In this document: positions 27,417-57,096 of the stretch, piece by piece
Layout of the letters: every line of letters begins with the position of its first letter
How positions within the stretch are numbered: position 1 is the stretch's first letter
Source: Aminicella lysinilytica
GTDB taxonomy: Bacteria > Bacillota > Clostridia > Peptostreptococcales > Anaerovoracaceae
Direction of reading: 5' to 3'
Length of the DNA stretch: 57,175 nt
Assembly: GCF_004362975.1 (NCBI RefSeq)
Contig: NZ_SNXO01000013.1
Coordinates: forward strand, 1-57,175
Made by a program: the position numbers and the translations under genes
Notes under the pieces: model-generated
The model's input: the letters and a program-made list of their open reading frames with translations, nothing else
Database searches by the model: none
Told to the model about the DNA's origin: nothing

Positions 27417-27770
27417 CGCACTTCCTATTAGCTATTTGGTTGTAAACGTGCGTCTGCGCACGTATAGCCTCATATCAAGGAATCAAGGTGCGTTTTTGGA
27501 ATTCCAAATTTCATTTCCGCACTTATCAGCCATTCTCAGAGCATGGAGGTGCGCATATTGGAATTCCAACGATTATCCGTGCACTTATAGCCCGTTTCAA
27601 AGACCAGGAAGTGCGTTTAAGTCACGATATACTGCTAAATAATGGAAATAATGGGTAATGCATCCATTGGCGCGCACCTCGACCTATTTGAATCGGTCAA
27701 TAAGTGCGATATTGGTTTACAATAATAAAAAATTCGCACTATCGTTCCAGATATTGGGCCAATACGTGCG
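27417..27770. repeat. 31-bp-phased array of alternating CGCAC/GTGCG motifs (copy A)
   Basis: CGCAC (-) and GTGCG (+) start at 27417-, 27448+, 27457-, 27488+, 27518-, 27549+, 27580- (TGCAC), 27611+, 27673-, 27704+, 27735-, 27766+. Apart from one 9-bp pair and one 62-bp gap every step is 30-31 bp and the orientation alternates strictly. Extended half-sites read AAGTGCG/CGCACTTAT. Two motif pairs enclose GGAATTCC. The same order and spacing recur at 46.7 kb and, inverted, at 56.9 kb. There is no protein-coding periodicity, since 31 is not a multiple of three. The whole interval 27337-27855 is otherwise gene-free. Confidence 0.9.
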
Positions 27771-27848
27771 CAGAGGGCTTCCGCTAATCGCAGAGGGCTT
27801 CCGCTAATCGCAGAGGGCTTCCGCTAATCGCAGAGGGCTTACGCTAAC
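27769..27848. repeat. Four 20-bp tandem repeats at the end of array copy A
   Basis: CGCAGAGGGCTTCCGCTAAT is repeated four times (the last with two changes), starting in the last GTGCG of the array and ending 8 bp from the cbiO stop. Copies B and C end in different 22-bp repeats at the same position. Confidence 0.9.
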
Positions 27849-27855
27849 CTCAAAT

Positions 27856-39005: not shown

Positions 39006-39114
39006 TTGTTACAGTTGGCTATTGTTCCATCAATGGTACAGTTATGCATGAACTTATGCATAAATAAGGGCGCCAGTCTAGACAAGATAATCACTGAAGC
39101 CTGTTTTCGTGGCC

Positions 39115-39469
39115 GCAAGAATCGGCTTTAAAAAGTCGCCTATGTGGCGTGCACGGGTAATTTCAACGTCTCACGCGCAAGAATCAGGATCAAAATGAAG
39201 CCTGTGTGGCGACTTGCTGGTTTTAATAAGAGTGACGTGCAAGAATTCCATATAAAATTAAATCAATGTGGCGGGATAGCCTATCAGAAGTGACTGATAT
39301 TAAGGCTTCACGCCACATTGTTATTATTATTCAAGTGATTCTTGCGCGGTACCACGGAGAATCCAAGCTACACGCCACAGTGCCTTAAATATCAAGTCGA
39401 TTCTTGCGCGAAGCCTCATCAGAAAATCCGAATGCGCCACATCGTCTCAAATATCAAGTCGATTCTTGC
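39115..39469. repeat. Mirror-symmetric array of six 35-bp units at 62-bp period
   Basis: Each unit is GCAAGAAT, exactly 20 bp, then TGTGGCG. Forward units begin at 39115, 39177 and 39239. Inverted units (CGCCACA, 20 bp, ATTCTTGC) begin at 39311, 39373 and 39435. The period is 62 bp in every case and the two halves face each other across 37 bp. The three forward gaps share AAAA at gap positions 8-11. The interior is otherwise variable, so the anchors and spacing are what is conserved. Confidence 0.92.
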
Positions 39470-39516
39470 GCGCAGTATACTAAGTTATGGTACACAAACC
39501 TGATAGATCCACATAC

Positions 39517-39562
39517 TTCCGAAAACGAAAAAATGCTTGAAGAACATTTTCGTTGTCGGAAC
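39517..39562. repeat. Long imperfect hairpin within element D
   Basis: TTCCGAAAACGAAAAAAT (39517-39534) pairs with ATTTTCGTTGTCGGAA (39547-39562) with one bulge or mismatch around a GCTTGAAGAAC-type loop. It may be a cruciform or an RNA hairpin. Confidence 0.75.
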
Positions 39563-39755
39563 TTGCATACTTTCACTGAGAAATTCAACTATAACATACA
39601 CCATGTCTAAAACATAATTGATCATGACCCTGTAAACCGTTGGAACTACTGGATTCAAGCAAATATATGGTTTACGATGTCAGGATGTGGTGATATCAGT
39701 AGATCGTTTTCGTTGCATTTAAAAATGTATGTATCGTACCATTGATGGAACGATA

Positions 39756-39788
39756 CCGGTTGAATAAACCGGCGGCAAATGGTATACT
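39756..39788 (+). promoter_or_regulatory. Promoter of the NifU-like operon with CCGGTT palindrome
   Basis: TTGAAT (39760-39765), 17-bp spacer, TATACT (39783-39788). The inverted repeat CCGGTT-GAATA-AACCGG (39756-39772) covers the -35 and is a probable operator. It abuts the right end of element D, which may therefore have delivered or displaced upstream control sequences. Confidence 0.7.
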
Positions 39789-46599: not shown

Positions 46600-46709
46600 G
46601 TAGTAGGCTATCGTTCCATCAATGGTACCTTTATACATAAGTTCATGCATAATTCTGGCCATCGGAATGTACCCGTAATCCTGGACAGTGGTATATACCA
46701 CAGGTTGCC

Positions 46710-47063
46710 CGCACCTTTTCTCAACGATTTGGACCTATAAGTGCGTCTGCGCACTTATAGCCTCTTATCAAGGAATCAAGGTGCGTTTTTGGCATTCTAA
46801 TTTTCATTTCCGCACTTATCAGCCGTTCTCAGAGCATGGAGGTGCGCATATTGGAATTCCAACAATTATCCGCGCACTTATCCACTTTTTTAAAGGAACA
46901 GAAGTGCGTTTAAGTTATGATATGCAGCCATATAATGGAATTAATGGGTAAAACATCCATTGACGCGCACCTCGACCTATTTGATTCAGCCAATAAGTGC
47001 GAGTTTGGTTTACAATAATATAAAATACGCACTATCGTTCCGGATATTGGGCCAATACGTGCG
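46710..47063. repeat. 31-bp-phased array of alternating CGCAC/GTGCG motifs (copy B)
   Basis: Motif starts: 46710-, 46741+, 46750-, 46781+, 46811-, 46842+, 46873-, 46904+, 46966-, 46997+, 47028-, 47059+. The intervals (31, 9, 31, 30, 31, 31, 31, 62, 31, 31, 31) equal those of copy A one for one, although intervening bases have diverged. Extended half-sites are AAGTGCG and CGCACTTAT; GGAATTCC is kept in one unit. Confidence 0.92.
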
Positions 47064-47066
47064 CGA

Positions 47067-47154
47067 AGAACTTTCAACCCAGTATCGGAGGACTTTCAAC
47101 CCAGTATCGGAGGACTTTCAACCCAGTATCGGAGTACTTTCACCCCAGTATCGG
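47067..47154. repeat. Four 22-bp tandem repeats at the end of array copy B
   Basis: AGGACTTTCAACCCAGTATCGG repeated four times with few changes, directly after the last GTGCG. It occupies the place of the unrelated 20-bp repeats of copy A. Confidence 0.9.
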
Positions 47155-47747
47155 AGGATATTTCCCACATCTTGGGTCCGCGGGCGAGCCTACCCAAAGG
47201 GCTCTGGACCGCGATGCCAGGTTTGGAAATATTCATGTTCCAAACACCAGAATATTCTCCAACAACTTTTTCGTTGCTGTACTTTGCATATAAGTCTAGG
47301 ATCGTGATGGGAAATGGGCATCCAAATTGCGCAAAAAGCACCCTGAAGTGGGCCTGAATTATGGCTGCCAGGGCCGAATTGAAATGCTTACATCGCCTGA
47401 AACGCTTGCGCTACAAGGCCTACGGCCGTCCGCTGGCCGCGTGGCCACTCCCTGCCTCAAGTCGGCAGGGACGTTTTTGATCAAGGTTTGCGAAGATGAA
47501 TAGGTTGATGCATAAACTTGTGCATAAAGGTACCATTGATGGAACAATAGCCAACCTGCATAAACTATTATCCGCACCACCACCCAGCGCCGTGCCGTCC
47601 GCGCCGCCACCCAGCGCCGTCACCCAGCGCCGCCACCTAACGCTGGCTGTCCGTGCCGGCTGCACCGCCAGACCCGAAAATCCGTGCGAAGCCACAATCC
47701 GGCAGGGTATATTTTGTACTAAACACACAAATAATCCACAAACCCCC

Positions 47748-56659: not shown

Positions 56660-57096
56660 TTTGTATTCAAAGCTGTTAGCCGCTGGCCCGTGCTTGCCCG
56701 CAGACCCGGGCGGCGCGGCCTGGCCGGAGTCCTTGAAGATCCCGGTCAGCCTGCTGGCCGCCGGGCCGTCCCGCGGGCCTGAGCCTTTTGGGTGGGCTCG
56801 CCCGCAGACCCGGGAAGAATTCCGCACACATATTGGTGTTGAGCCACTCGGCCACGGATATATGAAGCAGCAAGTAGAAAGTCCTTCGCGCACGTGTGGA
56901 AAGTCCTTCGCGCACGTATTGGCCAAATATAAGGGACGGTAGTGCGAATTTTTGTTTATGGTAAACCAAATACGCACTTATAGGCTGGATTAAACAGGTC
57001 GAGGTGCGCATGGCTGGTGTTATCATCCTTAAATGGGAATAAATGGCATATATTCGGAACTGAAAACGCACTTTTTATCTGATTGAGTCCGTATAA
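56660..57096 (-). mobile_element. Third copy (C) of the array element, inverted relative to A and B
   Basis: Starts within a few bases of the preceding terminator. A GC-rich part (56697-56816) has two copies of GCCCGCAGACCCGGG and a segment (56776-56811) that is the reverse complement of 47173-47212 in element B with few changes. After that come two 22-bp repeats and the phased array. The GTTCCATCAATGGTAC end is not seen; the copy may be truncated, and the sequence after 57096 to the window edge shows nothing I recognise. Confidence 0.6.
56887..57071 (-). repeat. 31-bp-phased CGCAC/GTGCG array (copy C) with two 22-bp repeats
   Basis: Motif starts: 56889- and 56911- (22 bp apart, the tandem repeats), then 56942+, 56973-, 57004+ at 31-bp steps and 57067- after 63 bp. 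Reversed, this is the same order as the last part of copies A and B, including the double-length step. The array then fades out. Confidence 0.88.

Follow-up and report, generated by a model that had tools for sequence, protein, structure and literature searches.

A proliferated family of intergenic six-site arrays in Aminicella lysinilytica, putative protein-bound scaffolds of a mobile repeat

The mirror-symmetric array described here belongs to a repeat family that has proliferated in the genome of Aminicella lysinilytica, a gut-type bacterium, beyond what an earlier sequence-only reading of the same DNA had suspected. These arrays are interspersed, intergenic and species-restricted, as judged from one genome of the species and with genes judged by ORFs. 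We regard them as species-restricted, proliferated non-coding intergenic repeats, whose six-site arrays are a putative protein-bound scaffold within a mobile repeat; on the sequence evidence we give this reading about an even chance. What was added to the earlier account is the inverted-end element that encloses the array, eight complete copies in the genome, and further arrays of a second type at 27417-27770 and 56911-57079.

The window (the whole 57,175-nt stretch of contig NZ_SNXO01000013.1 that was analysed) holds six GCAAGAAT-N20-TGTGGCG units with 0 mismatches, starting at 39115, 39177 and 39239 on the + strand and at 39311, 39373 and 39435 on the - strand. The six exact units, the 20-bp gap between anchors and the 62-bp period that had been claimed are thus present at every one of these starts, and the two halves do face each other. 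With the leading C counted, the unit is 36 bp long and the pitches are 62, 62, 73, 62 and 62, where 73 is the central turn. A pattern search at three mismatches or fewer found 7 matches; shuffled sequences gave a mean of 2.1 and reached 7 in 0 of 100 trials. The units (by pattern match) lie inside a 738-bp element, 39019-39756, whose inverted ends (TIRs) were located by core search:

39019..39039, + strand: left inverted end (TIR core) of the element around the A array
39114..39149, + strand: A unit 1, 36 bp, CGCAAGAAT-N20-TGTGGCG
39176..39211, + strand: A unit 2
39238..39273, + strand: A unit 3
39311..39346, - strand: A unit 4, inverted
39373..39408, - strand: A unit 5, inverted
39435..39470, - strand: A unit 6, inverted
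39736..39756, - strand: right inverted end of the element around the A array

Neighbouring genes are a radical-SAM/SPASM gene and one with a NifU_N match just below the Pfam cut-off, and the gene adjoining the array shows 73-77% identity in its ten best same-genus matches.

At one mismatch or fewer there are 68 such A units in the 2.29-Mb genome; this total and the one for B below rest on pattern counts in a single, 91-contig genome of the species. Complete A arrays number eight among the loci examined (window, L012, L024, L026, L030, L031, L033, L045), all with three units facing three, and 38 of their 40 pitches follow 62/62/73/62/62, the remaining two being 61, one in each of two arrays. 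L034 has five A units and a unit of the second type, B, at the sixth unit's place (unit 1). Incomplete arrays occur at L032 (four units) and L025 (two units plus a partial one past an insertion), one A unit faces one at L009 and L011, and lone A units stand at L046-L050. The A copies thus vary more than the B copies described below: in a 441-kb sample of the genome the complete six-unit places are four, others having five, four, two or one. The arrays form three sequence subfamilies. The middle of the A unit is A/T-rich: at three positions all or almost all of the 35 rows have A or T, a tendency that is weaker in B. L009 (C5:59117) and L012 (C55:7688) are two related TIR elements, the former without A units 1, 2, 5 and 6, which are missing symmetrically on the two sides, and with a central pair 99% identical to that of L012.

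The B unit, CGCAC-N26-GTGCG, is also 36 bp long, with CGCAC and GTGCG 31 bp apart, and recurs at a 62-bp pitch. The A period therefore is, as had been remarked, twice the 31 bp of the CGCAC arrays, and A and B, sharing unit length and pitch, bear out the proposal of several motif sets under one spacing rule. The pattern CGCACNTAT-N22-GTGCG has 139 exact matches in the genome; those listed fall, by hand count, in at least 23 places. The window accounts for three, at 27 kb, 46.7 kb and 56.9 kb:

27417..27770, - strand: B array without TIR ends, same geometry (pattern and profile search)
46608..47550, no strand: second TIR-bounded element of the window, which holds a B array (TIR core pairs)
46710..47063, - strand: B array of six CGCAC-N26-GTGCG units, pitches 40/61/62/93/62, inside the second TIR element
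56911..57079, + strand: B array, left part only, truncated near 57080 at an insertion-sequence-like end (cut seen by eye; pattern and profile search)

Nineteen B arrays could be aligned, these being the clusters with at least five recognised units out of 29, after nine with fewer than five and one L034 duplicate were dropped. They are 354-356 bp long, oriented ++---+ (a few single units undecided), with pitches of 62, 93 (94 in two), 62, 61 or 62, and 40. Beside unit 4 lie a conserved TTATTGTAAACCAAA block and a TTGGAATTCCAATAT block; TTCCAAT precedes unit 4 in 4 of 9 A arrays too, with one-base variants in three more. Directly beside B arrays there are tandem repeats of ~20-22 bp (window 27778-27850 and 47078-47160, by eye), and similar ones beside the L018 array. 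The insertion in the A array of L025 (L025:270-800, C46) is a miniature element that holds a B array and has insertion-sequence-like ends, presumably IS256-like, with an apparent 8-bp target duplication, CACTTCTG (by eye). Arrays at window 57080 and close to the starts of several contigs are likewise truncated by ends of this kind.

Further box sets were met. C units (GTCGGGC ... GCCCGAC) and D units (GTGTCC ... GGACAC) are 64 bp long. At a 93-bp pitch, units of C recur in L047, of D in L048 and of an E type in L046, all three sets adjoining single A units; in 3 of the 4 loci with a C unit it keeps a constant distance from the A unit (25 bp between box starts). At L046:28-93 a group II intron end (Rfam RF00029) adjoins an array. 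In a lag scan that ignores box sequence, 62-bp arrays appeared nine times and 124-bp arrays four times in 441 kb of the own genome, and neither appeared in 400 kb of genome G008 or in 601 kb from other genomes. The lag of 93 bp turned up once in the own genome, once in G008 and three times in other genomes, so the 93-bp pitch, which is also a multiple of three, is not distinctive.

Conservation is concentrated in the boxes and their spacing. The 19 aligned B arrays, which were picked by a box rule and are to that extent biased towards intact boxes, deviate from the consensus at 10 of 1140 box positions versus 1236 of 5585 positions elsewhere, with pairwise divergences of 1.5% and 31.8%, respectively. 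Their tree has long terminal branches (median 0.13), and 9 of its 16 internal branches are unsupported. Searching 441 kb of the own genome with profiles (E <= 1e-3) that were partly built from the same arrays turned up 11 B arrays: nine of full length and two truncated next to insertion-like ends, close to the window end or to the start of a contig. Eight of the nine full-length arrays have at most one box mismatch in total each; the ninth, in C10 (L210:11914-12270), is decayed, with two spoiled units and shifted spacing. The remaining matches are weak opposite-strand ones on the same arrays and a piece at L206:3624-3797, a lone B unit beside an A array. This low rate of decay argues that B boxes are kept locus by locus, or that only active lineages persist, and argues against dead filler.

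The A arrays tell the same story between and within subfamilies. Between subfamilies, for 9 of 10 arrays (the four-unit L032 was left out), identity is 78-97% in the boxes versus 37-45% at all other positions, and the two 61-bp pitches are the sole indels; the lower box values, 78-83%, belong to pairs with L034, where a B unit takes the place of unit 1, other pairs having 90-97%. The 20-bp flanks of the arrays are 10-53% identical over 36 pairs. Within subfamilies, 2-7 of 96 box positions differ versus 56-114 of ~260 elsewhere (Fisher p from 1.6e-4 to 7.6e-15 for the 9 of 10 pairs tested, L030-L034 being left out). The conserved set is thus box sequence, box-to-box distance and unit-to-unit distance, plus the A/T middle in A.

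Boxes and spacing frozen in this way, with no or negligible accompanying covariation, point to protein binding to double-stranded DNA and to cooperative assembly, and the conservation pattern of A and B fits the signature that would be expected of it. Each complete repeat would be a scaffold of six 36-bp sites over ~355 bp, each site consisting of two short facing boxes about three helical turns apart, with site distances fixed at 62 bp and turns of 73 (A) or of 93 and 40 (B). The pitches 40, 62, 73 and 93 lie near whole helical turns (best period 10.62 bp), but the fit is weak, since 40 of ~3000 random sets equal it. Because the distances are near whole turns, bound proteins would sit on about one face of the DNA and could join across the mirror axis. 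The boxes would be bound by a protein, probably one dimer per site, which may also act in trans to mobilise or copy the repeats. Some arrays ride in TIR-bounded miniature elements, and the unit that would move may be the array or the surrounding element. We infer that the bound protein is a mobiliser rather than a host factor.

No such enzyme or binding protein came out of family searches (serine recombinase, rve, Y1) or of ORF paralogy. The Y1 transposase (RAYT, PF01797) had 0 matches at E <= 0.001 in the 91 contigs of the genome, while 5 of 14 control genomes were positive. Serine recombinase (2 matches) and rve transposase (4 matches) were rejected as candidates, as the loci fetched around them had no A, B or TIR sequence; the same holds for the ~3.3-kb loci fetched around two gene pairs that we take to be IS21-like. 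The 412 ORFs of the 441-kb sample form paralogous families of at most four members, none of which is linked to the boxes; one of the four-member families is presumably LysR-like. The earlier suggestion of DNA-architectural arrays, perhaps read by paralogous proteins, is thus upheld in part, in that box and spacing conservation points to protein binding, whereas paralogous binding proteins were not found in these searches. We think it rather unlikely that the arrays form a genome-wide network of phased six-site scaffolds, a DNA-architectural repeat system of a new kind, in which box alphabets (A, B and the 93-bp C/D/E) share one spacing grammar, each alphabet would have its own protein, and the sites would be kept locus by locus in one species and would not be transposon remains.

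The arrays appear confined to this species. A units in 40 relatives gave one 1-mismatch match (a reversed control gave 0 in the own genome and 2 stray matches in relatives), B units gave 0 in 16 same-genus genomes by exact pattern, and a profile search of 400 kb of one same-genus genome found neither A nor B. The TIR core was found in 0 of 60 relatives with one mismatch allowed and in 0 of 348 other family genomes by exact match. The two-unit A pattern was absent from the genome contigs and viral contigs searched, the own record possibly lying outside both sets, and the TIR core hit 0 viral contigs, in a set that again may not include the own record. One viral match to the B pattern is a lone site without an array and is probably due to chance. 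Phage or plasmid origin was set aside, there being no similar DNA among phage or plasmid records. One protein search places the organism near Emergencia timonensis, the two best matches both being Emergencia at 84-85% identity. The sequence-only reading had named a lack of further arrays of this period in relatives as a refuting outcome, and by that test the result so far is negative, including for any 62-bp array in a lag scan of ~1 Mb of other genomes; the argument is therefore carried instead by the many diverged copies within one genome.

Gene context was scored for 29 copies using mechanical ORFs: 14 have co-directional neighbours, 9 convergent ones and 1 divergent ones, with 5 unclassified, against a background of 87 co-directional, 28 convergent and 33 divergent intergenic regions. 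The divergent context is rarer than in the background (1 of 24 versus 33 of 148, p=.05; for convergent, p=.06), and with 1 of 24 copies between divergent genes the arrays are not, as a rule, promoter operators. This bears on the best of the alternatives, which we consider possible though doubtful: that these are chromosome-architecture sites of the host, bound by a nucleoid, segregation or supercoiling protein, selected by the host at each locus and spread by recombination rather than as a parasite. The avoidance of divergent regions is somewhat like that of gyrase-binding BIMEs. The long end branches of the B tree, together with boxes intact at nearly every copy, speak for host sites, as does the single decayed array among nine of full length, which is what per-locus selection would give. 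However, one would expect relatives to share a core host system, and the same-genus genomes yielded neither box set. Several copies also have missing units or are interrupted by insertions (L025, L027, L009, L011), so single copies are dispensable.

The mobile-repeat reading brings in the TIR elements. The TIR core has 42 matches in the own genome at two mismatches or fewer, with 0 for a reversed-pattern control, and by hand count there are 16 facing pairs with spans of 255-1458 bp. Such pairs flank 2 of the 8 complete A arrays (window and L012) and 4 of the 19 aligned B arrays. The B array in the 46608-47550 element is 98% identical to that in the TIR element C9:19840-20818. In six partial B clusters (L017, L020, L025, L027, L029, L045) one TIR-like end is present, and L201 and L234 have an apparent retained TIR start or truncated ends (by eye). 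One TIR element has a long gene: L023:634-2091 (C7:7833-9290) encodes a regulator-like 433-aa ORF with an N-terminal HTH_17-like stretch below the Pfam cut-off and weak relatives in the genus. The TIR core of L023 resembles a promoter spacer (by eye).

Outside the arrays there is little in common. On either side of the 19 B arrays, the flanks have a consensus of no more than a few bases. When 250 bp on each side of the TIR-less B arrays were compared with the non-array parts of 15 TIR elements, 10 of 15 shared nothing, which indicates that arrays occupy many unrelated places; the other five (L192, L206, L226, L231, L233) have 31-60 bp flank pieces like TIR elements, and some flanks of TIR-less arrays resemble one another. 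Given the traces in these five and in L201 and L234, the array may not move alone, and some of the arrays that now stand by themselves may once have travelled in TIR elements, yet with boxes that have stayed intact. A GC-rich piece of ~55-60 bp recurs beside arrays (L206, L231, L233) and inside TIR elements such as L016, and may be a separate repeat. No target-site duplication was visible by eye at 36 aligned ends, an alignment that omitted ends <50 bp from a locus edge and two palindromic variants. Direct repeats near a few copies (25-49 bp long in four cases, plus a 23-bp repeat present several times) vary too much in length and position and were dropped as footprints of target duplication.

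Might the arrays then be passive filler of TIR-bounded MITEs, some having lost their ends, with the regularity an inherited history? We find this improbable. It would account for the window array and several others lying between TIR ends among 16 facing pairs, for two TIR elements with B arrays that are 98% identical, and for the one-ended partial clusters and the TIR-element pieces beside 5 of 15 TIR-less B arrays. But a TIR pair is absent from 6 of the 8 full A arrays and 15 of the 19 B arrays, where the boxes are equally intact, and neutral DNA would lose its boxes as fast as the remaining positions.

A still poorer prospect is a hairpin of RNA or single-stranded DNA, with the mirror halves paired as a long rod in the manner of REPINs or structured RNAs. 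RNA folding of 39105-39480 is strong (z = -7.8 on the + strand, -6.6 on the - strand), and compensatory change is seen in 5 of 62 predicted B pairs. However, such energy follows from the mirrored boxes themselves, and covariation hardly accompanies it, if at all. Across the A mirror, Watson-Crick pairing of the variable stretches is.378 within the same array versus.372 and.384 with other arrays, the latter value being with an array of another subfamily; in-register pairing (.378) exceeds that of slid registers (.25-.29), but equally so between subfamilies. Pairing within 53 A units shows no excess over shuffles, with no conserved hairpin palindrome found, and the B covariation term is 0.08 kcal/mol over ten aligned arrays. 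Rfam had 0 matches in the window, and the genome search gave no Y1 transposase. Finally, the simple recent 62-bp tandem duplication, here with inversion and without function, that had been offered as an alternative would explain the constant 62-bp pitch but can practically be dismissed, as units within an array share little beyond their boxes and subfamilies at 37-45% background identity retain the same geometry.

Returning to protein-bound scaffolds in a mobile repeat, several known systems invite comparison. The likeness to a CRISPR array was called superficial by the sequence-only reading, with only the anchors repeating, and we agree: N20 and linkers differ within and between arrays, so that repeats within an array are not near-identical (boxes only), and units are mirrored, three facing three, where CRISPR repeats have one orientation; identity with CRISPR is rejected. 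The ends of Mu, Tn7 and IS21 and the res sites of resolvases have several protein sites per end, with ends facing. Our arrays share these multiple facing sites, but no enzyme is linked to them and no target duplication was seen.

BIMEs, REPs and REPINs are described (PMC3116915, PMC2817692) as short, non-coding intergenic sites, alternating or facing, with regular spacing and many copies. Regular spacing and facing orientation are present in A and B arrays, whereas here only the outer boxes are conserved, without a conserved hairpin, in ~355-bp six-site arrays and with no PF01797 match, so a REPIN/RAYT system is not supported. BOX elements are modular. Together with RUP and SPRITE of Streptococcus pneumoniae, they are small interspersed repeats, largely species-restricted and judged parasitic; extensive secondary structure is reported for them, as are expressed ORFs for the large BOX elements (PMC3049150). 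Ours are likewise interspersed, intergenic and species-restricted, but with box sequence and spacing conserved and covariation absent or negligible. The BrickBuilt MITE of Porphyromonas gingivalis is an array in a miniature inverted-repeat element, described as species-specific and with 19 intergenic copies in one strain, made of contiguous 23-nt repeats without spacers (PMC4596501). An array within a MITE is common to both; the present arrays differ in their mirrored 36-bp two-box sites at a 62-bp pitch and in the many copies without inverted ends. A literature search for miniature elements that contain phased arrays, or arrays with regular spacing, turned up a single Drosophila paper, which leaves absence from print unproven.

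To our knowledge, the interspersed repeats described from bacteria are told by their tandem units, their inverted ends or a hairpin that is conserved. The conserved feature of the present family is a grammar of spacing: protein-type boxes set out over ~355 bp and repeated in dozens of copies, while the compared copies have otherwise mostly diverged by a fifth to more than half. The arrays would be assembly platforms for a DNA-binding protein, perhaps their mobiliser. They amount to a natural mutagenesis record of a nucleoprotein assembly, from which it can be tested which protein reads the boxes, and whether the benefit goes to the repeat or to the cell.
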